A stretch of 64,000 nucleotides of DNA from Chloroflexota bacterium (GTDB lineage Bacteria; Chloroflexota; Anaerolineae; Anaerolineales; UBA11579): the NCBI GenBank assembly GCA_013112575.1, contig JABFGG010000005.1:1-64000 (forward strand). Direction: 5' to 3'. A model generated the notes under the pieces. The model was not told the DNA's origin. It did no database searches and saw only the letters and a program-made list of their open reading frames with translations. The position numbers and the translations under genes are program-made. Numbering within the stretch: position 1 is the first letter of the stretch; every line of letters starts with the position of its first letter. This document shows positions 3,325 through 17,072 of this stretch, one piece after another.

Positions 3325-4353
3325 TTATGCGGACTGGGGTCGAATTTTTGGGAGGTCCCAGAAACTGACCATTTTCTGCTGTTGCTCATCCCACAAGTGG
3401 AAAAAGACCACCTTGATGCTGGTCCACAACGTGAAGGTCGTAGCATCGCGCAGGAAATCATTCTCTTCGTAAGCTTCTTCCAGACGGTAATTGGGGATCT
3501 TGGGGTTGAGATGGTGGATGTGGTGGAAACCGATATTGCCCGTGAACCACTGCAGCAATTTGGGAAGCTTGTAATAAGAACTACCTTCCAGCGCTGCGGT
3601 CTCGTACTCCCATTCCTTGTGGCGTCGCCAGTAGGTATCTTCAAACTGATGCTGAATATAGAACAGCCACACGCCTAGGGAACTAGAGATGATGGTTATC
3701 GGCAATTGGATCATAAAGAATTCTCTAAAGCCGATCAGGAGCCCCATAGCAATCACCACAACGGCGATCGCCAAATTGGTCATAGCAATGCTGCGGCGTT
3801 CCTTTTTCCATTCTTTTTTGACTTTGATCGGAATGCGGTGCAAGATGATGAACATAATGGCCGGGCCAACTACAAAAAGCACAAACGGATTGCGCATTGC
3901 CCGATACTTAACACGGCCCACAAAGTCGAGAGCCAGATATTCATCTACGGTAATCGTATCCACATCACCGAAGCCGCGAAAATCCAAGTCACCGGAGTTG
4001 GCGTGGTGTTTGGCGTGGGAACGCCGCCAGGCCTCATAAGGCGTCAAGGTGATGACGCTGGCGATCATGCCTACAAAGTCATTAGCCCGGCGAGAGGCAA
4101 AGAATGACTGATGCCCACAATCATGCTGGATGATAAAAATTCGAGTTAGAAAGCCGGCAGCAAAAAGTGCCAGACCCAGGGTCAACCAATAAGAGATAGA
4201 TAAGCTGAAATACATCAGTACCCAAATAACAAAGAAGGGCACGAAAGAATTAATGATCTGCCAGATACTGCGCCAGTTCAAGGGTGATTGGTACTTGGCC
4301 ACCTGCCTGACAAAGTGCCCTGCTTTTTTGGGCATGTCACTACTTGTTGCCAT
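3325..4353 (-). CDS. Fatty acid desaturase (membrane di-iron)
   Basis: 342 aa, full length for the acyl-lipid desaturase superfamily. All three histidine boxes are present: HDCGH at 77-81, HAKHH at 113-117 and HHIHH at 277-281. They lie in the expected order between two pairs of hydrophobic segments (about 35-75 and 155-235). Such enzymes introduce a double bond into a membrane lipid acyl chain using O2 and electrons from ferredoxin or a similar donor. Regiospecificity (delta-9, -12 or other) cannot be read from the boxes. It implies exposure to oxygen and control of membrane fluidity. Transcribed alone and divergently from the 4562 gene. Confidence 0.9.
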   Translation of the reverse strand: MATSSDMPKKAGHFVRQVAKYQSPLNWRSIWQIINSFVPFFVIWVLMYFSLSISYWLTLGLALFAAGFLTRIFIIQHDCGHQSFFASRRANDFVGMIASVITLTPYEAWRRSHAKHHANSGDLDFRGFGDVDTITVDEYLALDFVGRVKYRAMRNPFVLFVVGPAIMFIILHRIPIKVKKEWKKERRSIAMTNLAIAVVVIAMGLLIGFREFFMIQLPITIISSSLGVWLFYIQHQFEDTYWRRHKEWEYETAALEGSSYYKLPKLLQWFTGNIGFHHIHHLNPKIPNYRLEEAYEENDFLRDATTFTLWTSIKVVFFHLWDEQQQKMVSFWDLPKIRPQSA

Positions 4354-4561
4354 TCACATCTCCTCATTCATGAAAAAGTTGTCACTCGCATTCTTCAGGC
4401 CTGCGAGTCCATTAATTAGTACGGCGAACACAGCAAAACGATTCTCATTGTGATAAATAATGATAGGACTATAATCAAATGTGCAACCCTACACGAATTA
4501 TCTCGTATAAAAGAGTAGAGAATTCGTCATTTATTCATTTAAGTTTTATGATGAGGAGAAC

Positions 4562-5521
4562 ATGGAAAATCAACGCGTAAGATATGTTTGGGGCACTATT
4601 CTATTGTTGGTCGGGGCTTACTTAATGGCCGTCAACTTCAACCTGTTACCATCATTGACCATCAACAATGTGGCCTTGTTTTTCGGTGCATTGAGCCTCT
4701 TGTTCTTTGGCAGTTACTTTGCCAGCGGTATCCGCAATTTTGGCTGGTTATTCCCCGCCTTCATGATGGCAGCTATTGCAGTCATCATTGGCCTGGCAGA
4801 TACCAACGTAGACGGCACCATTTTGGGGAGCCTGCCATTATTTGCTGTTTCGGTCCCATTCTGGATCGTTTTCGCCCTCAACCGCCGCGAGAATTGGTGG
4901 GCACTTATACCGGCCTGGAGTACTGCGGCCATTGGCGGCATTATTTTGCTATCCAACCTGGTTAGCGGCGAGGTCATCGCCGGTTTCGTCCTCAGTGCCA
5001 TTGGGCTACCATTCCTGGTTGTGTACGCGATGAATCGCGAGAACTGGTGGGCGCTCATTCCTGGTGGCATCCTGAGCTTTATGGGGGCTGCATTCCTAAT
5101 CGCAGGCAATCTTAACGAAGACCTGCTTGGTGGCCTAATCGTTGGCGGCATAGGATTGGCTTTCCTGGTTGTCTACCTGCTGAACAGGAGCAACTGGTGG
5201 GCCATTATCCCTGCCGGCGTGTTGGGGACGGTCGGTGTGATAGCGGCATTGTCCCAACAACGCTTCATTCCAGGATTAGAAGATCGCATTTTGGGTGGTG
5301 TCTTCTTTGGCGGGATGGCCGTAACCTTTGCCATTTTGTGGCTGCTACGCAATCAACACGAAACAGCCTGGGCCGGATACCCAGCACTGGGATTGGGTGC
5401 AGCTGCTGCCCTTATAGCTATCTTTGGAACAAATTTTGACCAGATCTGGCCTGTCATTTTGATCGCTTTTGGCCTGTGGTTAATTTACCGCAATATGCGT
5501 TCACGCCCCCAGGCTGAATGA
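4562..5521 (+). CDS. Polytopic membrane protein with repeated NR(R/E)NWWALIP modules
   Basis: 319 aa, strongly hydrophobic, with about ten predicted transmembrane segments. An internal repeat of roughly 55-65 residues is visible. Each copy ends in a hydrophobic segment followed by a Trp-rich loop: NRRENWWALIPAW, NRENWWALIPGG and NRSNWWAIIPAG, with a diverged LRNQHETAWAGYPALG as a fourth. The WW loops would sit at the membrane interface. N-terminal and C-terminal parts (last line IWPVILIAFGLWLIYRNMRS) resemble small DUF5668-type bacterial membrane modules, but no function is assigned. Start ATG 4562 has GAGGAG 4-9 nt upstream. Confidence 0.75.
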   Translation: MENQRVRYVWGTILLLVGAYLMAVNFNLLPSLTINNVALFFGALSLLFFGSYFASGIRNFGWLFPAFMMAAIAVIIGLADTNVDGTILGSLPLFAVSVPFWIVFALNRRENWWALIPAWSTAAIGGIILLSNLVSGEVIAGFVLSAIGLPFLVVYAMNRENWWALIPGGILSFMGAAFLIAGNLNEDLLGGLIVGGIGLAFLVVYLLNRSNWWAIIPAGVLGTVGVIAALSQQRFIPGLEDRILGGVFFGGMAVTFAILWLLRNQHETAWAGYPALGLGAAAALIAIFGTNFDQIWPVILIAFGLWLIYRNMRSRPQAE

Positions 5522-5527
5522 GCAGTC

Positions 5528-5556
5528 TTGCGAGCCAGATACCCTGATGCTATAAT
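5528..5556 (+). promoter_or_regulatory. Promoter of tRNA-Val
   Basis: TTGCGA (5528-5533), 17-nt spacer, perfect TATAAT (5551-5556). Transcription should start near 5563, 5 nt before the mature tRNA 5' end. Confidence 0.75.
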
Positions 5557-5567
5557 GCCCGTCCTCG

Positions 5568-5641
5568 GGGCATGTAGCTCAGTTGGTTAGAGCGCGCCGT
5601 TCACATCGGTGAGGCCGGCGGTTCGAGTCCGTCCATGCCCA
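5568..5641 (+). tRNA. tRNA-Val (anticodon CAC)
   Basis: A full cloverleaf can be drawn. Acceptor GGGCATG pairs with CATGCCC (5634-5640), followed by discriminator A (5641). The D-arm is GCTC/GAGC. The anticodon stem CGCCG/CGGTG has one G-T pair and the loop TTCACAT gives anticodon CAC. The T-arm is GGCGG/CCGTC with loop TTCGAGT. CCA is not encoded. It decodes GTG. Confidence 0.95.
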
Positions 5642-5645
5642 TACA

Positions 5646-5672
5646 ACAAAACGGCAAATGCCGTTTTGTTGT
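5646..5672. terminator. Terminator after tRNA-Val
   Basis: ACAAAACGGCA (5646-5656), 2-nt loop, TGCCGTTTTGT (5659-5669). The arms carry A- and T-tracts, so it can work in both directions, for the tRNA and for the convergent ThDP enzyme gene. Confidence 0.75.
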
Positions 5673-5694
5673 TTAAGGCTTTGCTTTGTAAACC

Positions 5695-7296
5695 CTACAA
5701 TTGGTTTCTTGCTGAAGTCGGATAGCTACTTGGATCAATCAAAGCATCAATGATTATCGGCTGAGCTGCATCAAGAGCACCCTGCATAGCTAACTTGCAA
5801 GCGGCTTCATCATTCACTTGCGCATACCCTAGACCAAAAGCACCAGCTATCTTTCCCCAATCAGGACCATGGAATTCTGTGCCCTGTGGATTAATGGCAG
5901 CCTTCAGTTGCTTGGCACGGATCAGGTCAAGGGCATTGTCATTAAACACCACAATAACAAGTGGTGCCTTTGTATCACGTAGTTGGGCTAACTCCCCCAT
6001 TGCCATTAATAATCCTGCATCTCCTGTGAAACACACTACCTGGCGCTCTGGATACAGCCTGCTAGCAGCAATGGCGGCAGGCAGGCCATAGCCCATACAA
6101 GATAGTCCATTAGAAAGAAGATAGCTATTTGGAGTGTATGTAGGCCATTCCAGGGCAGCCAGTATCTTATGCGAACCTACGTCTGTGGTCACGATGGCAT
6201 CATCATTGACTGTCTGGCGAACAGCGGATAATACGTCTTGGGGCAGCAGGCGGCCAGATTTTGCCATAGGCAGTTGAATACTGGATTGCTTTTTATGCAA
6301 AGTAGCAACACATTCGGTGCCCCAGTTTTTATTTGATGCTGTTTGGAAAGCATCAAGCTGCGACAGAATCTGTCCTACCTCTCCTACCAGTTCAGCCGTT
6401 GCCGGCAATTGAGGGTCTGTGTTTTCCCAGGGTGCTATCCAGATCACAGGAGCATAGTGCTGCCAAGGTTTGACCAGCTCGACAACATCAAAACCCAGGG
6501 CTAGAATGCCATCGGCTTCATCGAGAATTTCATAAACTGGGTCAGATTGAGTCAGGCCAATCGTTCCCGCATAGAGGGGATGGCGGGCATCCAGAGCACC
6601 TTTGGCTTTGGGTGTCAGGATGACAGGTGCATCAAGCTTCTCACATAGTTTAGCAAGTGAGTAATGTTCATCGGTTGCATCAAAGCCCAAACCGGCGAGG
6701 ATCACCGGGCGCTGAAAGTTTTTGATCAAATGCCGGACCTCATCAATATCATCCAGCCTTGTGTTCATTTCTTCCATAAATGAAACTTGTTCATCGCCTG
6801 CTTCCATCCCTGCCATATCGGCACTCACTTGCAAATGTACCGGGCCAGGCCGCCCCTTCATGGTGAGGGCCATTGCATGCTCAATAATGCTGCGAGCAGT
6901 GTTAGCCTCAAGCTGAAAGCTCCCTTTGGTTATGGGTTCAAACATGGCCTGCAAGTTGATATATTGGTGCGTGTGTAGCGGACGGAGTTTGTCGGGGATC
7001 TGGGCGGAAATAAACAGCACGGGGGCGCGATCCAGGTAGGCATGGGCCACCCCTGCCACAGCGTTGGCTGCCCCTGGGCCTAGGGTTGCCAGGCAGGCGG
7101 AGGGTTTACCGGTGAGACGCGCCATGGCAGATGCCATATAAGCGGCCGAAGCTTCGTGATGTACCAGCACAAAGTCAATACCTGTGCGCTGAATTGCATC
7201 GACTACGGCGATATTTTCACCACCAGGCAGGCCAAAAACAGTGTCGATTCCGGCTCTTTTTAGCTCTTGGGCAAGAACTTCAGCGACTTTTGGCAT
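5695..7296 (-). CDS. Thiamine diphosphate-dependent enzyme, acetolactate synthase large-subunit-like
   Basis: 533 aa, the length of IlvB/BFD-type enzymes, with the usual three domains. The PYR domain has the catalytic Glu48 in HHEAS. A central domain follows at about 185-330. The PP domain has the Mg-ThDP motif starting GDA at 425-427 and ending NDN at 452-454. The reaction is decarboxylation of a 2-oxo acid, with or without carboligation. No small regulatory subunit (ilvN) and no other branched-chain amino acid gene is nearby, so a role other than valine/isoleucine synthesis is likely; the substrate is not known. The gene is divergent from the ubiquitin-like operon and shares a 133-bp intergenic region with it, so it could respond to the same regulator. 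Confidence 0.8.
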   Translation of the reverse strand: MPKVAEVLAQELKRAGIDTVFGLPGGENIAVVDAIQRTGIDFVLVHHEASAAYMASAMARLTGKPSACLATLGPGAANAVAGVAHAYLDRAPVLFISAQIPDKLRPLHTHQYINLQAMFEPITKGSFQLEANTARSIIEHAMALTMKGRPGPVHLQVSADMAGMEAGDEQVSFMEEMNTRLDDIDEVRHLIKNFQRPVILAGLGFDATDEHYSLAKLCEKLDAPVILTPKAKGALDARHPLYAGTIGLTQSDPVYEILDEADGILALGFDVVELVKPWQHYAPVIWIAPWENTDPQLPATAELVGEVGQILSQLDAFQTASNKNWGTECVATLHKKQSSIQLPMAKSGRLLPQDVLSAVRQTVNDDAIVTTDVGSHKILAALEWPTYTPNSYLLSNGLSCMGYGLPAAIAASRLYPERQVVCFTGDAGLLMAMGELAQLRDTKAPLVIVVFNDNALDLIRAKQLKAAINPQGTEFHGPDWGKIAGAFGLGYAQVNDEAACKLAMQGALDAAQPIIIDALIDPSSYPTSARNQL

Positions 7297-7383
7297 AGTC
7301 CTTCAAGTTTACCATCGAGCTGGATGCGCTTACTACACGCAGTTTTAGTACCCATGACCCATACTCTTTTCGAAAAAACACTC

Positions 7384-7409
7384 TACAATTCGGTTTAGTG
7401 GTCTGACCA
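7384..7409 (+). promoter_or_regulatory. Promoter with FadR/GntR-type operator in front of the ubiquitin-like operon
   Basis: A -10 box TACAAT lies at 7384-7389; no good -35 box is visible. Ten bases downstream is the perfect palindrome TGGTCTGACCA (7399-7409). It fits the FadR-subfamily operator pattern TNGT-N(0-3)-ACNA exactly and would cover the first transcribed bases, a classic repression position. The first gene of the operon encodes a protein with a FadR-type winged helix, so autoregulation is the simplest reading (inference). The start codon is at 7430. Confidence 0.7.
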
Positions 7410-7429
7410 ACATACCAGAGATTATTGTT

Positions 7430-9085
7430 ATGAATATTAACCGTATCGAGCGCAAAACCCTCAGTGATTTAGTGGCCGGACAGTTGGCATCATCCATTCT
7501 GGATGGCACCTTCCCTGTCGATAGCCAATTACCCCCCGAACGTGAGTTGATGGGCAACCTGGACGTTAGCCGTTCTACACTACGTGAGGCCCTCAAGATC
7601 CTGGGCGAGATCAACCTGATCGAAGCCCGCCCGGGTGTGGGTTGGTTCGTGCGACCTTTAGGCGAGAACAACGTCACTAAAGCGCATGAATTGGCTGCCA
7701 GCGATAATAATCAAGATTCAAAACCACTCATCAAAGTAAAATCTGCCGGCAGTGAAGTAGCCACCGGGCCCAAACGCCTGCCAACCTCACCCGACAAACC
7801 CCTGCGCATCCCCAACCTAAAAAAGGACCGCCTGGGTACCTTTGATTTCATCTCCTGGTGGGAGCGTGACAAGGTCGACCAAGCAAAGGTGATGATCGTA
7901 GGGGCTGGCGCTTTGGGCAATGAGGTCATCAAAAACCTAGCTCTGATGGGTGTTGGACACATTTACGTGGTGGATTTTGACGAGATCGAGATGGCTAACC
8001 TGAGCCGTTCAATATTATTCCGTGAAAGCGACTCGGGCCGCAAAAAGGCCGAACTGGCCGCGGCGCGTGCCAAAGAGATCAACCCCAACGTGCACGTGCA
8101 GTATTTGCATGGTGACATCACCAACGAAATTGGCCTGGGTATTTTCCGCCGTATGGACGTGGTCATCGGCTGCCTGGACAACCGCGAAGCACGCCTGGCC
8201 GTCAACCGCTTCTGCAACTGGGTGGATCGCACCTGGGTAGACGGCGCTATTCAAGAACTCCTTGGATTGGTACGCGTATTTACCCCCGGCGACGGGGCCT
8301 GCTTTGAATGCACACTGACGGCAGATGCACGGCGGGACCTGGCTATCCGCTATTCCTGCCCTTTGTTGGCCCGCCAAAACGTGTTGATGGGCAAGGTGCC
8401 CACCACCCCAACGATTGCTTCAATTATCGGTGCCATGCAATCCCAGGAAGCCCTCAAAGTAATTAATGATATGCCCATCAGCCCGGGTAAAGTCACCCAC
8501 TTTAACGGCATGGTCAATGATATGCACACCACCTCCTACGTGCCGGATGAATATTGTGAAAGCCATTGGCAATATGGTGACATCACAGAGCTACCAGCCC
8601 GTGCCGAAACGACAACCCTGGGCGACCTATTACAGATCGCGCGCACAGAACTGGGCAATGAGGCCATTATCGAACTCGACCAGGAACTGGTTGAGGCCTT
8701 GGAATGCCGCGTATGTAATACGGTTGAGAACGTACTCAAACCTATTTCAGATATCAGTTTTGAAGCCGGACACTGCCCGGTATGTGGCGAGATGCGCGAA
8801 GTGCACATGACCCACACCATCGATGGCAGCGAAGATTTCCTGCATCGCACCCTCGCCAGCATCGGTATTCCCCCACTGCATATCCTGCGGGCACACAATG
8901 GCGAGGAGTATCGCTTCTATGAATTGAGCGGCGATCTGGATGAAGCCCTGCATTTCCGCCACTTCGAAGATTCGCCCGACCACCCCAAGAAAGTATTACG
9001 TGAACGTATCCACATCGGTGATGAAGTGCAGGCCGACGACATACCCAGCAGCCCGGCGCGCGGTCGCGTCAAGCTATTTGACTGA
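7430..9085 (+). CDS. E1-like ubiquitin-activating enzyme with N-terminal GntR-type DNA-binding domain
   Basis: 551 aa. Residues 1-77 are a GntR winged helix of the FadR type (LPPERELMGNLDVSRSTLREAL and wing RPGVGWFV). After a linker, 140-355 is a ThiF/E1 adenylation domain. It has nucleotide loop GAGALG (158-163), the D182..N190/R193 motif, and CLDN (D250, N251). CFECTL (291-296) is shared with the eukaryotic NEDD8 E1 subunit UBA3, and C310 in RYSCP lies where the E1 catalytic cysteine is expected. The tail has two CxxC pairs (C426/C429, C449/C452) that should bind zinc. It should adenylate the C-terminal glycine of the Ubl encoded at 11105, form a thioester, and pass it to E2. It is not a plain MoeB/ThiF, because E2, Ubl and JAMM genes follow. 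The DNA-binding fusion is unusual. The next gene starts 8 nt downstream. Confidence 0.88.
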   Translation: MNINRIERKTLSDLVAGQLASSILDGTFPVDSQLPPERELMGNLDVSRSTLREALKILGEINLIEARPGVGWFVRPLGENNVTKAHELAASDNNQDSKPLIKVKSAGSEVATGPKRLPTSPDKPLRIPNLKKDRLGTFDFISWWERDKVDQAKVMIVGAGALGNEVIKNLALMGVGHIYVVDFDEIEMANLSRSILFRESDSGRKKAELAAARAKEINPNVHVQYLHGDITNEIGLGIFRRMDVVIGCLDNREARLAVNRFCNWVDRTWVDGAIQELLGLVRVFTPGDGACFECTLTADARRDLAIRYSCPLLARQNVLMGKVPTTPTIASIIGAMQSQEALKVINDMPISPGKVTHFNGMVNDMHTTSYVPDEYCESHWQYGDITELPARAETTTLGDLLQIARTELGNEAIIELDQELVEALECRVCNTVENVLKPISDISFEAGHCPVCGEMREVHMTHTIDGSEDFLHRTLASIGIPPLHILRAHNGEEYRFYELSGDLDEALHFRHFEDSPDHPKKVLRERIHIGDEVQADDIPSSPARGRVKLFD

Positions 9086-9093
9086 GGTGCATT

Positions 9094-9996
9094 TTGGCAC
9101 AGGCCCGTATGATGACAGGCATGAGAAAGCCGTACAGCCGTCCTAGAACCACTTTCGCCAGCCTCATATTGAGGATCGGCGGTGTGGCCGTGGCAGCTAT
9201 CGTCACCGCAGAAGTCTTCGTGCTGGTGGACGTTTACAACGTCTTTCTGCCCCCCGAGTTCTTGATCTGGTCATCCGTGATCGGTATCGGCATGGTTTGT
9301 GGCTTGTGGGCCCGTTTCTTATTGCGCAAGAACACCAGCTTGTTGCGCGTCTTGGCCGCACTCATCGGTTTGATGAGTGCACTATTGGTGCAGAACCTGA
9401 TCACCAATGGTGATTTTGGCGTCAACTTATTACAAGCAAATAGCAGCCCCAATTGGCTGGGGCTGGCCCAACTGGGCCTGGGCGCTTTCTCCGCCTTGCT
9501 AGCACTACGGGCATGGCACAAAGCAGTACGAGTCGTCCACGATCAACCATCGGTGGCTGCAACTCAACAAATTTCACAACCCGTCCGCCCTGCTGGACGA
9601 ACACGCCTCGCACCCAATGGCCGCGGCAACAGCACGAGTTCTGTTTCTGTGACTACAAGCTCCCCGGTGCGCAGCAATGGGCGCAGATCTTTGGGTAATT
9701 TACTTTCAAGTCCGGGACGCATGATCAGTGATGGTTTTGTGCGCCTGCGCAACGCCTCTCCGGTTATCAAACGCGGCAAGTTTAAACGTGCCCGCAGCGG
9801 TTTGCGCTTCTTCAACCGGGCTAAACCCGTGCAGTTTTCCAATGTACAAACCCACGTGTGCCCCTATTGCCTGGAAGAGTTAAAGGAAAACGAACCAGGT
9901 GGCGTAGAAAAATGCAATACCTGTGGCACATATCATCACGCCGATTGCTGGGTGGCCGGTGGCAGCATATGCCAGGTGCCACACTTACAGGAATAA
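9094..9996 (+). CDS. Membrane protein with C-terminal RING-like zinc domain (candidate E3)
   Basis: 300 aa. Four predicted transmembrane helices at about 22-48, 56-77, 83-103 and 119-140. A Ser/Thr/Arg-rich cytoplasmic linker (150-245) follows, and then a cysteine/histidine domain. The ligand pattern is C256-x2-C259-x14-C274-x2-C277-x3-H281/H282-x2-C285-x7-C293-x3-H297. Eight ligands in this order fit a binuclear treble clef such as the prokaryotic RING finger (CGTYHHADCW core). RING domains bring E2~Ubl to substrates, so this may be a membrane-bound ligase for the operon's E2 (inference from fold and neighbours). Start chosen at TTG 9094 with GAGGTG about 6 nt upstream; ATG 9109 is the alternative. 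The linker could be phosphorylated and read by the FHA protein downstream. Confidence 0.75.
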   Translation: MAQARMMTGMRKPYSRPRTTFASLILRIGGVAVAAIVTAEVFVLVDVYNVFLPPEFLIWSSVIGIGMVCGLWARFLLRKNTSLLRVLAALIGLMSALLVQNLITNGDFGVNLLQANSSPNWLGLAQLGLGAFSALLALRAWHKAVRVVHDQPSVAATQQISQPVRPAGRTRLAPNGRGNSTSSVSVTTSSPVRSNGRRSLGNLLSSPGRMISDGFVRLRNASPVIKRGKFKRARSGLRFFNRAKPVQFSNVQTHVCPYCLEELKENEPGGVEKCNTCGTYHHADCWVAGGSICQVPHLQE

Positions 9997-10012
9997 TCTT
10001 TTCGGAGGAATC

Positions 10013-11047
10013 ATGGCCGATCTACCAATTACCGTAATCCTGCCTAATGGCAGCGCCCGCAACGCAGAAGTGCCCGATGACGTGGCCTGCCGCGACCTGG
10101 TGGCCGAACTGGCTACTTTGCTTTCACTGCCCACTGTAGGACCAGATGGCCGCCCGATGGGCTACCGCCTGGACAGCAAAGCGCTGGGACGCGAACTGAC
10201 CGAAGATGAAACACTGTCTCAAGCCGGTATTCCCGCTGAAGACCGTTTGATCGTGACAGCAGACATCACCGCCGGAGCCGTTTCAGTAGCCAACAGCCCG
10301 CGCATGCGCCGCCTGAAGGCTGACCAAAAGCGCATGGAAGAGCTGGCGGCCCAGAGCGACTTCATCAGCTTCACTACCAAGTCTGCCAAACGCGGCTTGC
10401 CGCCTGACCGCTACATCGTCACCTTTTCCTGCAAAGGCATCATAGGTGTCGATCCCCAGGGCAATCCCAAATTCGGGGAGCGCCACCAGGTCGAGATCTA
10501 CCTGCATAACGACTATCCCCACCGCTGGCCGGGCATGAAATGGTTGTCCCCCGTATGGCACCCTAATATCCATCATGCCAACGGCACAGTGTGTGTGGAC
10601 GCCGCCTGGTGGACGGCCAGTCGTTCACTGGACCGCCTGGTACTGATGATCGGCGAGATGGTGCAGTACAAGAACTTCCACGACGACCCCACCAAACCAC
10701 CCTTCCCATGGGACCCGGAGGCAGCTCGCTGGAGCCGCGATTATCGCAAGAAGAATCCGGATTTCTTCCCCATCGACACACGCGAGTTACTGCATCCTGA
10801 ACGCGTGCACATGACGGAAGGCGTAAAGGCCAAACCCGCTGCTAAAGCCAAGATCAAAATGGGTAAGCCCGAAGCAAAACCTGCCCAGAAAAAGATCCTC
10901 GGTATCAAGTTCGGTAAAGAGCCCCAAGCCGCAAAAAGCAGCGGCAAGATCAAGATGGGCAAGGCTTCCAAATCGTCCGGAAGCATCAAGCTCGGCAAGA
11001 ACAATAAAAAGGACGATAACAAAAATTCACGTATTCGCCTTAAATAA
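10013..11047 (+). CDS. E2-like ubiquitin-conjugating enzyme with N-terminal Ubl domain
   Basis: 344 aa. Residues 1-88 are a beta-grasp Ubl domain, 58 of 88 positions identical, without gaps, to the free Ubl encoded next (hand count), including the final TADITAG. Residues about 95-265 are a UBC domain: strand region RYIVTFSCKG, PHRWPGMKW, HPN at 183-185, and NGTVC with catalytic C194 followed by VDAAWW. The HPN-to-cysteine layout is nearly that of eukaryotic E2s. Residues 270-344 are a very basic tail with the repeats KIKMGK, GIKFGK, KIKMGK, SIKLGK and the end SRIRLK. It should accept Ubl from E1 and transfer it to lysines. The start ATG 10013 is preceded by GGAGGAATC; an in-frame upstream start would run into the RING gene and is rejected. 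The Ubl part may be cut off by the JAMM protein or may act as a built-in donor or regulator. Confidence 0.9.
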   Translation: MADLPITVILPNGSARNAEVPDDVACRDLVAELATLLSLPTVGPDGRPMGYRLDSKALGRELTEDETLSQAGIPAEDRLIVTADITAGAVSVANSPRMRRLKADQKRMEELAAQSDFISFTTKSAKRGLPPDRYIVTFSCKGIIGVDPQGNPKFGERHQVEIYLHNDYPHRWPGMKWLSPVWHPNIHHANGTVCVDAAWWTASRSLDRLVLMIGEMVQYKNFHDDPTKPPFPWDPEAARWSRDYRKKNPDFFPIDTRELLHPERVHMTEGVKAKPAAKAKIKMGKPEAKPAQKKILGIKFGKEPQAAKSSGKIKMGKASKSSGSIKLGKNNKKDDNKNSRIRLK

Positions 11048-11104
11048 GGCCGCGATTCGGTTCGCCATTATCGGTAGACCAAAACTTATCGTTGGAGGAA
11101 CAAC

Positions 11105-11371
11105 ATGTCAGACCTTGGAGTCACCTTCGTTTTACCGTCCGGCGGCACCCGCACAGCGGAAGTGCCCGACGACGTACCGGTGCGTGAGCTTATGCCCGAG
11201 TTGACCACGTCGCTCGAGTTGCCCACCACCGGCCCAGATGGCCGCCCCACCAGCTACCGGCTGGACAGCAAAGCGCTGGGGCGTGAACTGACGGATGAAG
11301 AAACACTGAACGACGCGGGCGTGCCCGATGCCGATCAGTTACTCATCACAGCCGACATTACCGCAGGGTAA
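11105..11371 (+). CDS. Ubiquitin-like modifier protein (YukD/EsaB-like beta-grasp)
   Basis: 88 aa, the size of a free ubiquitin-fold modifier. It has an N-terminal beta hairpin (VTFVLPSGGTRTAEVPDDV), a helix (VRELMPELTTSLEL), and the tail LLITADITAG, ending directly on glycine. It ends in Ala-Gly, not Gly-Gly. Because the last codon before the stop is Gly, it may need no processing before activation by the E1 at 7430. It is nearly a copy of the Ubl domain of the preceding E2. Proteins of this class are related to the YukD/EsaB group (family knowledge). The gene has a strong ribosome site (GGAGG, 11094-11098) and is followed by an intrinsic terminator. Both point to high expression, as expected for a modifier. 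Confidence 0.85.
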   Translation: MSDLGVTFVLPSGGTRTAEVPDDVPVRELMPELTTSLELPTTGPDGRPTSYRLDSKALGRELTDEETLNDAGVPDADQLLITADITAG

Positions 11372-11380
11372 TTGAGGCTG

Positions 11381-11460
11381 CCGGGCGGCCGGAACCACGA
11401 TTCCTGCCCCGCGGTTCTAACCTCCTTCCGGCGGTTGGCCGCCCGGTCCTTCTTTTTCTT
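11381..11460 (+). terminator. Internal intrinsic terminator between Ubl and JAMM genes
   Basis: A perfect 10-bp GC-rich stem, CCGGGCGGCC (11381-11390) with GGCCGCCCGG (11437-11446). A partial inner stem (CCGGAA/TTCCGG) is visible, and the T-rich run TCCTTCTTTTTCTT follows. Partial read-through would give more E1-RING-E2-Ubl transcript than JAMM-FHA-VWA transcript. Confidence 0.75.
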
Positions 11461-11474
11461 ACTAAGAGGCATCT

Positions 11475-12161
11475 ATGTCTGGGTCACTCATCCGGCTAAG
11501 CCCCAACGATATCCCTGAGCCCAAAACGGCCAGCATTCCTGGGAATGCTATTCGCTGGCGCTCACAATACGAGATCGCCGGTTACAAGGCGCCTGTTTCG
11601 GTGTTCGTGACCTCAAAAGCCTTCGTTCGTTTCTGTGCGCATGCGGGCAGCGACCTAAAAAATGAGGTCGGCGGTTGGTTGGTGGGCAAGTGGCGCGCTG
11701 ACGAAGAAAGTGGACAACAATTCCTGATCGTGGACGCGGTGTTGCCTGCGCTATATACAAGGCACGGCAGCGCTTACCTCACCTTTACGCAAGACAGTCA
11801 GGTTGCCATGCACACCATGATGGAGGAGAAATATCCCGAAAGCGATCTGGTGGGCTGGTATCACACACACCCGCGCATGGGCGTATTCCTCTCCAGTTAC
11901 GACACCTGGCTGCACGGCAATTTCTTTCCCCATCCCTGGCAAGTGGCTTTAGTGATCGAGCCTGTGTCAGCGACAGCAGGCTTCTTCATTCCCGACCAGG
12001 ATGGTGTGCTGGATAACCGTCGCTATTATGGATTTAATGAGATTTACAACGGACGGAAAAGTAGCGTGGTGCATTGGACCAATTTGCACTCCGATGAAAA
12101 AAGAGAGCTTCAATCGAATAACGGTGATGTGAAATTATTGGAGGACGATAACGATGACTAG
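11475..12161 (+). CDS. JAMM/JAB (MPN+) metallopeptidase, candidate deubiquitinase-like protein
   Basis: 228 aa. The full JAMM zinc site is present: E64 (NEVGG), then HTH at 130-132, S140 and D143, which fits E...HxH-x7-Sxx-D. The surrounding GWYHTHP and following helix are typical of active JAMM peptidases (Rpn11, BrcC36 and bacterial Cap3/Bil types). It should remove Ubl from targets, or cut the Ubl domain from the E2 fusion after ITAG; both are inferences from context. The C-terminus ends in an acidic stretch (LLEDDNDD). It sits downstream of an internal terminator, so its level may be held below that of the conjugating enzymes. It overlaps the FHA gene by 8 nt, which indicates translational coupling. 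Confidence 0.9.
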   Translation: MSGSLIRLSPNDIPEPKTASIPGNAIRWRSQYEIAGYKAPVSVFVTSKAFVRFCAHAGSDLKNEVGGWLVGKWRADEESGQQFLIVDAVLPALYTRHGSAYLTFTQDSQVAMHTMMEEKYPESDLVGWYHTHPRMGVFLSSYDTWLHGNFFPHPWQVALVIEPVSATAGFFIPDQDGVLDNRRYYGFNEIYNGRKSSVVHWTNLHSDEKRELQSNNGDVKLLEDDNDD

Positions 12162-13011
12162 ATTTACGAGACTTTACTATGCCGGCATCCTGGGAGGCAT
12201 TGGCGGCCTGCTTGGCTGGCAGATCAGTAATTACCTGGGCCTGTCCTTCACGGACAATGTGTACCTGAGTGAAGTACTGGTAGGCGCTTTGATCGGCCTG
12301 AGCATCGGTGTGCTGATCGGCTTGCTGGAAGGCATTGTGACCCAAAACTTCATGCAAGGGCTCAAGGCCGGGGCCATCAGCGGGGGTCTGGGGATGGTGG
12401 GCGGTGCAATCGGCCTGCCCCTCTCCGAAGGCTTCTTCCAGTTGCTGGGCGGCGAGGTTTGGAGCCGTTCATTAGGCTGGGGTTTGTTCGGCCTGTTGAT
12501 CGGCCTGGCAGCCGGGATCACCAGCGGGGCCCAGATGTGGAAAGGAGCCCTTGGCGGCTTGATCGGTGGTTTGGTGGGTGGCGGCCTTCTGGAAGGGGCA
12601 CGCCAGTTCCTGCAAGACCCCCTGATCGGCAAGGGTGCTGGGCTTGTACTACTAGGCGCTTCAGTCGGTACCTTTATCGCCTTGATCGTCTTGATCCTCT
12701 CGCGGGCCTGGTTCGAGGTCACTTCGGGCAAATTGCGTGGCACGGAGTTCGTGCTGGACAAGTACATCAAAGCCCAGGGGCCATCAGCCTTCATTGGTAG
12801 TGATGCCCTGAAATCGGACATCGTTTTGCCCGACCCCGACATCGCTCCCCAGCATGCGATGGTAAAGGGCAACGGCGAACATATCAACCTCAAAGACTTG
12901 AGCTATAACGGCACCTTTGTAAATAACCGCAAGATCAGCCAGGCCCAACTGGCTAACCGCCAGATGCTGCGAGTGGGCAATACAGAGTTGATGTATCACG
13001 AGAAGAGGTAA
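12154..13011 (+). CDS. Polytopic membrane protein with C-terminal FHA domain
   Basis: 285 aa. Residues 7-185 are glycine-rich hydrophobic segments, about six transmembrane helices with many GxxxG-type contacts. Residues about 195-280 form an FHA domain with FIGSD (213-217), the H234 region PQHAMV and the NGTFVN loop (252-257). FHA domains bind phosphothreonine through an Arg in the GR turn and a Ser before the His. Here GR is GS and SR is PQ, so binding to phosphopeptides may be altered or lost. The loop Asn and GT are kept. Its place between JAMM and VWA genes, with an 8-nt overlap upstream and a 3-nt gap downstream, puts it firmly in the operon. It may be a membrane platform that recruits the conjugation enzymes. 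Confidence 0.8.
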   Translation: MTRFTRLYYAGILGGIGGLLGWQISNYLGLSFTDNVYLSEVLVGALIGLSIGVLIGLLEGIVTQNFMQGLKAGAISGGLGMVGGAIGLPLSEGFFQLLGGEVWSRSLGWGLFGLLIGLAAGITSGAQMWKGALGGLIGGLVGGGLLEGARQFLQDPLIGKGAGLVLLGASVGTFIALIVLILSRAWFEVTSGKLRGTEFVLDKYIKAQGPSAFIGSDALKSDIVLPDPDIAPQHAMVKGNGEHINLKDLSYNGTFVNNRKISQAQLANRQMLRVGNTELMYHEKR

Positions 13012-13014
13012 GTC

Positions 13015-14157
13015 ATGCGCAAGAATAGATTATTGGTTTCAGGCTTATTGGTAATTGCGCTTTTCGTATCGGCGGCTTTCTCCCCTGTGCTGCAGGACGA
13101 ACCGCCTGGTGAAGAGACTCCGGCTGGCGACGTGAATATACAAATCACACAGGTGGACACGTCGCAGTTCCCGGAGGTTACGGTCTACGTCTCCGTAACG
13201 GATGCCAACGGTGAACCGGTAGGTGTGGATGCCAACAGTATCGTGCTTGAGGAGAATGGACAGGCCATCAACCCCACCGGCATCGGTGGCGAAGGCCAAA
13301 TCGGCCCGCTGACCACCCTGCTGGTGATGGACATCTCTGGCAGCATGAACACGGCCGGCAAGTTGAGAGCTGCCAAAGACGCCGCCACGGCTTACGTGGA
13401 GCAAATCCGCACCGGTGACGTGGCGGGTTTGTTGAGCTTCAACACGCAGATCAATTACGTGCAGGAGATCACAACAGACCGTGAAGCCCTGTTCGTGGCC
13501 ATTGAAAGCCTGCGTGCCCGCGATGACACGGCCATGTATGATGCATTGGCTGAGAGCGTGGGGATATTGGAAAACATCCAGGGCCGCAAGACAATCATCG
13601 TGTTGACGGATGGACTGGACAATGTCAGCGCCATCACGCCCGAAGAGGTGCTGGAGCGCATCGGCCCATCCGGCCTGTCGATCTCGACCATCGGCCTGGG
13701 TGACCCCACAGTGGGCAGCGGCTCACTGACCGCCCTGGACGAGGCAGCCCTGCAACGCTTGGCTGCCAGTGCAGGGGGTGCGTATGCCTTTGCAGATGAC
13801 CCCGACTCATTGCTAGCAGTATACCAGCGCTATGGACGTGCCCTGCAGAGCGAATACGCTTTCAGCTATATCTCGCCGGGCAACCTGCGGGATGGCGTCA
13901 ACCGGGCGCTGTCTGTTTCCCTGACGGATACGGCGACTTCGAGTGTATCTGCTCAGGGTGCCGTGTACAACCCGGGCGGCTTAGTACCTGAGATCGCCTC
14001 CCCTGCTCCCTGGCCTTTGTTCCTGGCTTTGCTGGGAGGCCTGCTGGCATTGCTGCTAATCCCCATCATCATAGGCCGGACAGCTGGCATGGTGGGTGGT
14101 GGTAGCGGTGGTGGTTTCAGCCTAGGCCGAAAAAAATCGCGCATCAAGTTCAAATAG
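13015..14157 (+). CDS. Membrane-anchored VWA domain protein
   Basis: 380 aa. N-terminal signal sequence (about 5-24), an Ig-like region (40-95), a VWA domain at about 98-275, a C-terminal domain, and one transmembrane helix at about 333-353 with a short basic cytoplasmic tail. The MIDAS is complete: DISGS (106-110), T172 and D199 in LTDGLD. VWA domains bind protein partners through a divalent metal. The topology places VWA outside and only the tail GRKKSRIKFK inside. That tail ends SRIKFK, close to the SRIRLK end of the E2. It is the last gene of the operon, with a strong terminator after it. It could sense or present extracellular or envelope partners, but the actual role is unknown. Confidence 0.85.
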   Translation: MRKNRLLVSGLLVIALFVSAAFSPVLQDEPPGEETPAGDVNIQITQVDTSQFPEVTVYVSVTDANGEPVGVDANSIVLEENGQAINPTGIGGEGQIGPLTTLLVMDISGSMNTAGKLRAAKDAATAYVEQIRTGDVAGLLSFNTQINYVQEITTDREALFVAIESLRARDDTAMYDALAESVGILENIQGRKTIIVLTDGLDNVSAITPEEVLERIGPSGLSISTIGLGDPTVGSGSLTALDEAALQRLAASAGGAYAFADDPDSLLAVYQRYGRALQSEYAFSYISPGNLRDGVNRALSVSLTDTATSSVSAQGAVYNPGGLVPEIASPAPWPLFLALLGGLLALLLIPIIIGRTAGMVGGGSGGGFSLGRKKSRIKFK

Positions 14158-14244
14158 CGCGATCCAACTTTGAGAGATACCTTCCTAAGACGATTACAGG
14201 TTACAAATTATTGGTGTAAACGGAAGGATTTCTACCCTCTCCAG

Positions 14245-14297
14245 CCTCCCGCTGGTAGTGCTCTCCTCCAGAGTACCAGCGGGAGGTAACTTTTTTT
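14245..14297 (+). terminator. Intrinsic terminator of the ubiquitin-like operon
   Basis: A perfect 13-bp stem, CCTCCCGCTGGTA (14245-14257) with TACCAGCGGGAGG (14274-14286), followed by TAAC and seven Ts. Confidence 0.9.
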
Positions 14298-14363
14298 AAT
14301 TAGGAATCAGTAATTAAGAAATAGTAACTGGGGTCAGGTTCAAAAAAACCAGGGAACTAGCAA

Positions 14364-17072
14364 CTAGCCGGTGTTGCGCAGCCCCGCCGCGATGCCGTTG
14401 ATGGTCATTACGACAACCTCCCGCAAAGGTTCGGCTTGCGGGCCTTCTGGTTCGTCCAGGGTGCGCAGCCGTTTGAGCATCTCTACCTGAATGTAATTGA
14501 GCGGGTCCACGTATGGGTTACGCAATTCGATTGAACGCTGGATGACCGGCTCATCATCCATCAACTGCTGGTTGCCATTGATGGCGAGGATGGCATTGCG
14601 AGTACGCTCGTATTCTGCCGAGATACGCTCAAAGATGCTGCTTGCCAGTCGCTTATCCGTGACCAGATCGGAATACAGGGCAGCAATTCCCAGATCGGCC
14701 TTGAGCAGGGACATCTCGGCATTGTCCATCAAAGCCCGGAAGAAAGACCATTCGCGATATAAAGTCTTGAGCAGATCGGGATCAGAGGCTGCCTCCAAGC
14801 CTGTACCAAGGCCGTACCAACCCGGCAAATTAAAGCGGCTCTGCATCCAGGAAAATACCCAGGGGATGGCACGTATCTTGGTGACCTGCGCCCCACCCGG
14901 CCCACGCGTGGCGGGTCGTGAACCGATGCGCAGCCGTGTGATCTCTTCCAAAGGCGTGGCTTCGCGCCAGTATTCCAGGAAGCCATCGGTTTCATAAACC
15001 AGGCTGCGGAACTCATCCCGGGCCACTGATGCCATGTCAGTCATAGCTGCACGCCAAGCTATTTTGACACCATCCAACTCACGTCGCGGGGAGGAAGACA
15101 GCAACACGGCACTGGTAACTTGCTCAAGATGACGGTAAGCCAGGTCAAGATTGGCATAGCGCGAGGTGATCGACTCGCCCTGCTCGGTAACACGGAAGCG
15201 GCCATTGATCGTGCCCGGCGGTTGGGCGCGTATGGCGCGGTTGGCAGGCCCACCACCGCGTGCGACCGTACCACCGCGACCGTGGAAAAGGGTCAAGTTA
15301 ACATCGCATTGCCTGCAAGTCTCTGCGATAGCTTCTTGCGCCTGATATAAAGCCCATTGTGCAGCCAGATAGCCGCCGTCCTTGTTGCTATCCGAGTAGC
15401 CGATCATGACGGTTTGTTCATTCTGGCAGCTTTCCAGGTGCGCCTTATATTGCTGGTGTGTAAAAAGGGTCGAGAGCACCTCAGGGGCTGCCACAAGGTC
15501 GTCTACCGTCTCAAACAAAGGTACGATATCCAAACATTCATCGAAGCCAGCCCAGCGAGCCAGGAGCAGCACAGTGAGGACATCTGCAACGCCCCGCGTC
15601 ATAGAGATAATAAATGGCCCCAGAAGTTCTGAGCCGTATACCGCCTTCACGCGTGCCAGCAATTTAAATACTGACCAGGTTTCTGCTGTCTCGGGGGTGA
15701 TGCCTGGCCGGTCTGCCAGGGCAGGCACGGGTTCATCCAATAAGGTTGACAAGACATCAGCACGCTCAGCTTCACTGAGTTTCTCAAAACCCTCGTAACG
15801 CCCCAGGCCGCGCAGAATCTCTGCAATCGTAGCCGTGAGCCGAGAAGATTCCTCACGGAAATCCAGACGCGCCGCATGCAGACCAAATATCTCTAATTGA
15901 CGCTGAACTTCTCCAAGCGCGTTGCCCGCCACACTCTTTGGAGCAATACCGGCGATCATGGACAGCGGGGCCGTATATTCTTTGATCTTGGCGCGAGCGG
16001 CATGCGGCTCATCAGATAACAATCGGGCACGCATGTCTTCCCGAGAAGCATAGGCCAGGTCGCTGGAAAGCAGGGATAAAGCCAAGCGATAGGGCTCATT
16101 CGAATATCGATCTTCGAGATAGGCCACGTGAGGAGGAAGAGGGCGACGAGCCTCAAACCAGGCCTGCAATGCAGAGGGCAAAGGTAAGCGTTTGATGTCA
16201 AAGCTCAGGCGGCGAGACAGTTCTTTAAAAGCCTCACGATGCTTTTCCACAGCCAAACCACGATGTAAGCGCAAAGTTTCAGCTGTGATCTCATGGGTAA
16301 CGTTGGGATTGCCATCGCGGTCACCCCCCACCCAGGAAGCCATACGATACCAGGCATGCTTGACCTGCACATCTGGATAATGTTCAGCCAGTGCGTCCTC
16401 GAGTTCTGTATAAAGACGCGGCAGCAAGTCCCAAAATACCTGATCGATGAAGTACAAACCTGTGCGCACTTCGTCCGTGACTTCGGGCCGTGCGCTACGG
16501 GACCGGCTTGTGAGCCAGAAGTTAGTTACTTCGGCCAGGAGGGCCGCGTGTCGTTCATCGCGGTCTTGTGGAAGCAAGTCTGGGTAATCCAGCTCACGCA
16601 GAATCAGGGTGATGCGCTCTAATTTGGAGAGGATGGTACGGCGTTTTGACTGCGTAGGATGGGCAGTAAGTACAGATTCAATGTGCAGACTATCGATCAA
16701 GATTTGCATCTCTGTGCTAGTGACACCCTGGGCCTTTAAGTCCCGGATGGATTTTGTTATCGACTCGGCAATCGCTTCTGGATAGCTGGTAGCCAGGCGT
16801 TCGCGCAATACATTGACACGGTGGCTTTCTTCTGCCAGGTTGACCAGATCAAAGTAAAGCGCAAAGGCTGAAGCCACCGCACGGGCCTGGTCCGGGTTAA
16901 GTTCGGCTACGGCTCCCGCCAGAGCAGGGCCGGCTTGAAGCTCCCCCGCCCTGCGATCCTTCGACAGTTGGCGGATGTTCTCTTCAATGTCAAAAATGGC
17001 TTTCGATTCCTGGGTGGTGATGACGTGCCCTAAGGTGTCACCCAGCAAGCGGATCTTGGCAGATAATTCCAT
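14364..17072 (-). CDS. ppc: Phosphoenolpyruvate carboxylase
   Basis: 902 aa, full length. It forms oxaloacetate from PEP and bicarbonate and refills the TCA cycle. Hallmarks are visible: VLTAHPTQ with catalytic H138, GGDRDGNPNVT, MIGYSDSNKDGG, FHGRGGTVARGGGP, and the C-terminal end RNTG expected of bacterial PEPC. It has no operon partners. Its -10 box ends 6 nt before the ATG, so the mRNA is probably leaderless. Confidence 0.97.
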   Translation of the reverse strand: MELSAKIRLLGDTLGHVITTQESKAIFDIEENIRQLSKDRRAGELQAGPALAGAVAELNPDQARAVASAFALYFDLVNLAEESHRVNVLRERLATSYPEAIAESITKSIRDLKAQGVTSTEMQILIDSLHIESVLTAHPTQSKRRTILSKLERITLILRELDYPDLLPQDRDERHAALLAEVTNFWLTSRSRSARPEVTDEVRTGLYFIDQVFWDLLPRLYTELEDALAEHYPDVQVKHAWYRMASWVGGDRDGNPNVTHEITAETLRLHRGLAVEKHREAFKELSRRLSFDIKRLPLPSALQAWFEARRPLPPHVAYLEDRYSNEPYRLALSLLSSDLAYASREDMRARLLSDEPHAARAKIKEYTAPLSMIAGIAPKSVAGNALGEVQRQLEIFGLHAARLDFREESSRLTATIAEILRGLGRYEGFEKLSEAERADVLSTLLDEPVPALADRPGITPETAETWSVFKLLARVKAVYGSELLGPFIISMTRGVADVLTVLLLARWAGFDECLDIVPLFETVDDLVAAPEVLSTLFTHQQYKAHLESCQNEQTVMIGYSDSNKDGGYLAAQWALYQAQEAIAETCRQCDVNLTLFHGRGGTVARGGGPANRAIRAQPPGTINGRFRVTEQGESITSRYANLDLAYRHLEQVTSAVLLSSSPRRELDGVKIAWRAAMTDMASVARDEFRSLVYETDGFLEYWREATPLEEITRLRIGSRPATRGPGGAQVTKIRAIPWVFSWMQSRFNLPGWYGLGTGLEAASDPDLLKTLYREWSFFRALMDNAEMSLLKADLGIAALYSDLVTDKRLASSIFERISAEYERTRNAILAINGNQQLMDDEPVIQRSIELRNPYVDPLNYIQVEMLKRLRTLDEPEGPQAEPLREVVVMTINGIAAGLRNTG

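Follow-up and report, generated by a model that had tools for sequence, protein, structure and literature searches.

A conserved ubiquitin-like conjugation operon of Anaerolineales with membrane components and an E1 that is a likely repressor of its own genes

The contig JABFGG010000005.1 of a Chloroflexota bacterium (order Anaerolineales, assembly GCA_013112575.1), whose first 64,000 nucleotides are referred to here as the window, carries at positions 7430-14157 seven plus-strand open reading frames encoding, in this order, an E1 enzyme preceded by a GntR DNA-binding domain (GntR-E1), a membrane RING protein, a ubiquitin-like protein (Ubl) fused to an E2 enzyme, a free Ubl, a JAMM protease, a membrane FHA protein and a membrane VWA protein. 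Genes for all five conjugation roles (E1, E2, E3, Ubl and deubiquitinating enzyme) are present, with catalytic residues intact at the sequence level, and we consider it reasonably probable that the block represents a membrane-assembled Ubl conjugation machine whose E1 likely also represses the operon. One order of the Chloroflexota carries, in this way, the genes of a full and conserved cascade with a membrane RING. Beyond what a preliminary description of this DNA had recognised, the GntR domain on the E1, an operator with its promoter and a basic motif shared by the tails of three proteins have been observed.

The intergenic distances, in order 8, 16, 57, 103, -8 and 3 nt, agree with the preliminary description, which had counted seven plus-strand genes separated by 3-103 nt, with a single overlap of 8 nt, and its claim of a complete set for activation, conjugation, ligation and removal is borne out by domain profiles and by invariant catalytic residues. 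The window proteins matched the Pfam families ThiF (4.7e-54), UQ_con (9.9e-11), JAB (8.8e-12), FHA (5.8e-12) and VWA_2 (2.6e-14), and both Ubl copies matched YukD (2.7e-7 for the fused and 6.9e-12 for the free one). The window RING, with 20.8 bits for the whole protein and 24.9 for the RING fragment, did not reach the curated cut-off of 29.1 of Prok-RING_1 (PF14446), a profile which was matched at 0.01 or better by all 58 family members scanned (best 2.2e-13). The best solved match of the window JAMM is 6fjv, named 26S proteasome regulatory subunit N11-like protein, which we take to be a Caldiarchaeum protein. The start of the Ubl-E2 gene was set at ATG 10013, conserved by alignment, in place of the GTG 9923 of the mechanical list of reading frames.

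A protein search returned 1799 proteins related to Ubl-E2, and the loci compared here numbered 78 (the window and L049-L125), or 66 non-identical ones once 12 duplicates had been removed, 62 with the seven-gene block and 4 with a sister operon; some of the 66 are very close to each other, with E2 identities of up to 99%. The seven genes are found in identical order and on one strand in 50 of the 50 non-identical loci showing all of them, which answers in the affirmative whether relatives keep the same genes and order and argues that the arrangement is not due to chance. Of the other 12 seven-gene loci, L120 has an interrupted E2 frame and the remaining 11 run into the end of a contig. The carriers include Pelolinea submarina MO-CFX1 (L097), a named strain whose genome is complete.

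Residues were counted in protein numbering (for the E1, open-frame numbers minus 24), with gapped rows and sister loci excluded. In the E1, the glycines of GxGxxG, Arg193, Lys206 and Asp250 are kept in 51/51 sequences, Cys310 in 52/52 and the four C-terminal cysteines in 57/57, these cysteines being conserved candidates for the thioester-forming residue. The HPN motif and the catalytic Cys of the E2 are intact in 60/60, and the Glu, His, His, Ser and Asp of the JAMM are invariant in 59/59, so that the loss of E2 or JAMM active sites, which the preliminary description had regarded as fatal to its reading, was not seen. The 58-row RING alignment has 12 invariant columns (C23, P24, C26, C41, C44, H48, H49, D51, C52, W53, C60 and H64 of the fragment), including the Cys/His ligands of the cross-brace, and the metal ion-dependent adhesion site of the VWA domain keeps DxSxS in 55/55 and its Thr and Asp in 52/52 covering sequences. 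A ThiF-family E1 with CxxC pairs would also suit a sulfur-carrier or cofactor system of the MoeB/ThiF kind, a reading which is scarcely credible given that an E2 with an invariant Cys, a RING and a JAMM are adjacent, and that the best solved relatives of the window E1 are eukaryotic E1s. In two loci, L106 (4801-6743) and L110 (11277-13075), the seven-gene block holds two JAB genes in place of one, and the open frame of one of the two measures 378-422 aa.

The free Ubl ends in the residues TAG in 61/63 sequences, sister loci included, and the same ending, ITAG (VTAG in L106), is seen in the fused Ubl, where the next residue is mostly Ala, Gly or Ser. The two exceptions among the free Ubls are L100 (TAGGR) and L110 (TAGA), where the residues beyond TAG, GR and A respectively, look as though they belonged to a precursor requiring trimming. 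From these ends it is predicted that the JAMM may trim both the free and the fused Ubl after TAG. The YukD matches of both Ubl copies, together with the resemblance of the Ubl model to ESX-5/EccD5 chains and the somewhat commoner occurrence of WXG100 in carriers (7/19) than in other genomes (7/42), could mean that the Ubl serves type VII secretion and not conjugation. Against this very improbable alternative, no WXG100 match was found in the window genome (93.8% complete) or in 12/19 carriers, and the seven-gene loci place the Ubl, in fusion with an E2, together with an E1 and a JAMM.

As regards regulation, the GntR winged helix is present in 48/48 E1s whose N-terminus lies inside the contig, and its two recognition-region arginines are kept in 50/50 covering rows. 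GntR regulators of the FadR/PdhR type have a C-terminal FCD or UTRA domain and bind a TGGTNNNACCA-type operator; GntR-E1 resembles this type in its winged helix-turn-helix and in a TGGTNNNACCA-type palindrome, while the C-terminal FCD/UTRA ligand-binding domain is absent and the C-terminal part is the E1. Upstream of 48 E1 genes, TGGTNNNACCA was perfect in 38 cases, with one mismatch in 7 and with two in 3, while 0.17% of block-shuffled regions held a perfect site and 7.5% one with a single mismatch; in the 45 loci with at most one mismatch it starts 26-46 nt ahead of the presumed E1 start. Outer arms lengthen the palindrome around this core and, in the window genome (G000), GGTNNGACCANNANACC occurs at the operon palindrome only, once per strand. 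A sigma-70 -35/-10 pair with at most two mismatches precedes the operator in 33/48 loci, compared with 0.6% of single-base shuffles; the window stands outside these 33, its best scripted pair having 4 mismatches and differing from the pair chosen by eye.

These observations make it likely that GntR-E1 represses its own operon, the operator binding being a prediction. The centre of the operator lies 13-16 nt downstream of the -10 element in 28 of the 33 loci whose promoter is good (4 nt in four and 21 nt in one), a repressor-like placement. When 22 genomes were searched with a related operator pattern, 15 of them yielded 26 matches in all, compared with 22 for a reversed control; 20 of the 26 are at the operon, in 12 of the 15 carriers, and among the matches in carriers 20/22 are located there. 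The carriers without a match are G055, whose contig begins inside the E1, and G058 and G216, which have differing sites. Of the 6 matches away from the operon, G018 and G024 have one apiece and the other four fall in 3 of the 7 non-carrier genomes. A wider regulon was rejected on the operon-only occurrence in G000 and on these 6/26 matches set against the 22 of the reversed control. It is rather improbable that the GntR domain regulates something else, or activates, and that the E1 is no autorepressor; such a reading can point to the predicted nature of the binding, to GntR proteins that are activators, to the 3/48 loci without a good operator site and to the stray matches in G018 and G024, while the placement of the operator and the concentration of its matches at the operon speak for autorepression. 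In L108 and L110 the E1 is preceded, at a distance of about 160 nt, by a palindrome of another kind (TGGTATAATAACTATACCA type), and the GntR wing differs as well, with RGTFV in place of GVGWFV; L106 has a wing of the RGTFV kind but the ordinary operator.

The second feature linking the proteins is found at their C-termini. The pattern [RK].?[IV][RKHTQV][LIFM] occurs in the final 12 residues of 48/58 E1, 51/60 E2 and 42/51 VWA proteins with complete ends, all three matching within one locus in 27/47 cases, and it is absent from the last 12 residues of the RING (59), Ubl (59), JAMM (59) and FHA (56) proteins; among flanking predicted reading frames it was present in 6/613. Most of the misses are variants, such as KPVIRLK, KPNIKIK and GKVILRD, the apparent true misses being the E1 of L094 and L098 and the VWA of L106 and L120. 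Over 57 E1, 46 E2 and 50 VWA tails, 103, 72 and 71 motif copies were counted against about 5, 5 and 3 in shuffled tails when the better of two patterns was chosen per protein, and the weaker pattern gave 81, 42 and 56 copies against 6.0, 5.8 and 3.4; since the pattern was drawn from the same tails, these counts are descriptive and not an independent test. In the genomes G000, G018 and G033, a search restricted to forms ending in Lys followed by TAA or TGA, which leaves the VWA of the window itself outside, gave 25 hits, three of them the operon's own, and no other frame of at least 100 aa ended in the tested form (longest 93 aa). The motif also stands directly before the RING in 8/59 proteins, for which no claim is made.

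The best candidate for a common docking partner of the three tails is the FHA protein, which is preferred because the sister operon, where neither FHA nor VWA was recognised, is also without the motif in its four loci (last 55 residues of the E1 and last 12 of the E2), yet keeps Ubl and JAMM. The main alternative is the Ubl, on account of its acidity (mean net charge -6.8). Docking of the E2 tail in cis on the fused Ubl was set aside, the tail being of low confidence in the structure model. FHA domains bind phosphothreonine through a conserved Arg and Ser. In the present family GS replaces GR in 57/57 sequences and P stands at the Ser position in 57/57; with these pocket residues lost, phosphothreonine docking was rejected and phospho-signalling through the FHA domain is unlikely, so that this domain most likely binds something other than phosphothreonine.

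That three of the seven are membrane proteins, as the preliminary description had it, is supported by simple hydropathy, which also underlies the topology proposed here. Transmembrane segments number 2-4 in the RING protein (0 in one locus), 2-5 in the FHA protein and two in 42/50 VWA proteins (one in 8), where the motif tail follows the last segment.

Taken together, these features suggest the following cycle. The E1, as its invariant ATP-site residues indicate, would adenylate the C-terminal Gly of the Ubl, which would be passed to the cysteine of the E2 and directed by the membrane RING to lysines of membrane or membrane-near proteins, while the JAMM would remove it again and possibly cleave the Ubl-E2 fusion after the same TAG. 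The E1, the E2 and the inner tail of the VWA protein would dock through their basic, beta-like motif on one partner, for which FHA is favoured, and the extracytoplasmic VWA domain would convey an envelope signal. The GntR part of the E1 would occupy the palindrome beside the -10 element and keep transcription low until the cycle engages the E1; the site and the domain are observed and the binding is deduced from them. More tentatively, it is possible that free E1 occupies its dedicated operator and departs when it is loaded with Ubl or recruited to the membrane complex through a tail motif private to E1, E2 and the surface-sensing VWA protein. The most likely role is a regulated tagging, under stress, of proteins in the envelope or membrane, and not a proteasomal one. 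The proteasome family PF00227 was not found in 60/61 genomes, that of the window included, and proteasomal degradation was dropped on this ground.

The free Ubl was found in 19/61 genomes, counting that of the window, or in 17/42 with at least 90% completeness and at most 5% contamination, and matches were obtained in 27 of 301 genomes sampled across the phylum; 9 of these 27 had E < 1e-30, 8 in the order of the window and 1 (G070) elsewhere in the phylum, the others being a sister form (G200) and 17 weak matches. The match in G070 (contig C561, 3686-3949), 75% identical, comes from an assembly with 8% contamination and may reflect transfer or contamination. With Ubl-E2 as query, 54 loci were obtained from named genomes, every one of them titled Chloroflexi/Chloroflexota, Anaerolineae, Anaerolineales, Anaerolineaceae, Anaerolinea or Pelolinea. 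In one lineage the block occupies the interval between rplL and lexA, which measures 6.8-7.1 kb with the operon inside in G033, G350 and G058, whereas without the block the two matches are 77-113 nt apart in G046, G322, G103, G112 and G121, and 490 nt in G168; such alternation among close relatives argues that the block comes and goes as a unit. The rplL and lexA genes are split between contigs in G137 and G129; in G216 they are widely separated, and the operon adjoins lexA.

Defence, one of the functions that the preliminary description had entertained, received no support from the neighbours or from phage, plasmid and viral-contig searches. The block would then be a membrane-bound cousin of Bil or Bub tagging phage proteins, which we regard as unlikely. 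The patchy all-or-none presence in close relatives suits an accessory function, the title of Hor et al. 2024, cited in PMC13373217, has Bil conjugating Ubls as a defence against phage, and across the ThiF region that they share the E1 matches PADLOC E1-E2 models at up to 61.7 bits (1.7e-17) and, weakly, BilD (25.5 bits); a weak BilC match (11.6 bits) was also obtained, and the Ubl-E2 and the Ubl gave no PADLOC match at 0.1, the presence of BilA/BilB models in the library not having been checked. On the other side, the neighbours are ribosomal genes, lexA, the gene for phosphoenolpyruvate (PEP) carboxylase and similar ones, varying by lineage (rplL-side ribosomal genes and lexA, lon/tpx, or BchI-type genes); these names were given by eye and Pfam bore out LexA, L10, L12, CorA, Mg-chelatase and redoxin. 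In 146 of the 161 flank proteins chosen as nearest, from 52 loci, the Pfam list was led by LexA (13), L10 (9), L12 (5) and CorA (5), and no enrichment in defence genes was seen with PADLOC, the scan having no background set for comparison. Of the 92 PADLOC families matched at 1e-5, 57 trace to one methyltransferase (L099) and nine, mad3, mad8 and AriA among them, to one ABC ATPase (L093), while the CARF3 match comes from a LuxR-type regulator and the CorA match from CorA itself, PDC-S15 not having been traced to its source, and the two proteins flanking the block in the window gave none. Moreover, no relative of Ubl-E2 was found in the phages or viral contigs searched and only one distant E2 on a plasmid (29% identity over 47% of the query), and the GC content of the operon tracks that of the flanks and host (r 0.91, 42 loci), with a mean 2.8 points higher and a difference of 4.8 in the window.

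The coordinates of the block and its surroundings are collected in Table 1. Further upstream, two tandem LysM-M23 peptidase genes lie at 453-2756 of the window.

Table 1. Features of the conjugation block and its flanks in the window
Feature	Position	Strand	Basis or remark
Thiamine pyrophosphate (TPP) enzyme, flank	5695-7296	-	Pfam
-10-like element TACAAT	7384-7389	+	by eye; -35 poor in window
Putative operator palindrome, core TGGTCTGACCA at 7399-7409	7391-7417 (outer arms)	.	sequence pattern
GntR-E1 fusion, 551 aa	7430-9085	+	winged helix, ThiF/E1 adenylation domain, C4 zinc-type site, motif-bearing tail
GntR DNA-binding domain, E1 residues 13-74	7466-7651	+	PF00392, 1.8e-16
E1 C-terminal tail	8999-9082	+	sequence pattern; two motif-like stretches, RERIHIGD and RGRVKLFD
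Membrane protein with C-terminal RING of Prok-RING_1 type	9094-9996	+	RING codons about 9859-9984
YukD-type Ubl fused to E2	10013-11047	+	catalytic Cys codon 10592-10594
Lys-rich E2 tail	10808-11044	+	motif-like repeats IKMGK, IKFGK, IKLGK; terminal SRIRLK
Free YukD-type Ubl, 88 aa, C-terminus ...ADITAG	11105-11371	+	Pfam YukD
JAMM/JAB protease, Rpn11-like	11475-12161	+	HTHP...S..D codons about 11862-11903
Multi-pass membrane protein with C-terminal FHA (about 12793-12978)	12154-13011	+	phosphothreonine-pocket residues absent
VWA protein: N-terminal signal or transmembrane segment, VWA about 13315-13809, C-terminal transmembrane segment	13015-14157	+	metal site intact
VWA tail with shared motif (SRIKFK)	14074-14154	+	after C-terminal transmembrane segment
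PEP carboxylase, flank	14364-17072	-	Pfam

Among the closest known arrangements is the sister operon of other Anaerolineae/Chloroflexi (L071, L121, L123 and L124), which likewise has an E1, a Ubl ending in TAG, an E2 and a JAB protein, with a RING-like gene adjoining in L071, L123 and L124, and is without the GntR domain, the Ubl-E2 fusion and the E1/E2 tail motif. A dynamin-like GTPase gene lies upstream in L123, with genes of the same cluster in L071 and L124. The L123 locus (3924-14466) encodes a CAP protein, the GTPase, an E1 without GntR, a Ubl ending in TAG, an E2 and two JAB proteins, together with two Prok-RING_1 proteins, of which one probably has a membrane helix; the L121 locus is short. 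The statement of the preliminary description that Bil, Bub and type II CBASS come without RING, FHA and VWA is not contradicted, but a RING together with E1, E2 and JAMM is not confined to this block, being also present in the sister operon. Bil, Bub and type II CBASS are said to keep E1, E2 and JAB genes together, with a Ubl in Bil and Bub, and Burroughs, Iyer and Aravind reportedly predicted in 2011 a bacterial Prok-RING_1 with E1, E2, JAB and a YukD-like Ubl, reportedly with membrane helices. The operon of Caldiarchaeum is reported to contain a JAMM as well and to be without a GntR domain on the E1, a Ubl-E2 fusion and membrane RING, FHA and VWA proteins, all of which are in the window block. 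Archaea have a proteasome, whereas PF00227 was not found in the window genome.

Among published systems, that of Caldiarchaeum subterraneum has, as in the window, operonic E1, E2, small RING and ubiquitin genes, according to Hennell James et al. 2017 (PMC5654768). The operons 6a-6d of Iyer et al. 2006 have E1, E2 and JAB in one operon, with a Ubl in 6d (PMC1779556), and a 2014 survey reports a complete ubiquitin toolkit in none of the bacterial genomes analysed (PMC4327156). The 6d E2s are described there without the classical His (PMC1779556), whereas HPN and Cys are intact here, and the RING, GntR, FHA and VWA are additional in the window block. For Bub, PMC13373217 gives separate DNA-damage regulators in many operons, CapW or CapH with CapP, or CapK with CapS, and states that phage protection by these operons has yet to be demonstrated. 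The literature searched yielded no account of a GntR-E1 fusion or of the present operon, the 2011 prediction of Burroughs being outside its reach, and GntR-E1, its operator and the shared tail are, as far as these searches show, undescribed features. If the proposed reading is true, the E1-repressor fusion couples the charging state of the Ubl to transcription in one polypeptide, and the docking tail shared by E1, E2 and the surface-facing VWA protein is a testable route to gathering a bacterial cascade at the membrane. In comparison with Bub, the regulator is here fused to the E1 itself, and the RING and the membrane proteins are encoded within the block.

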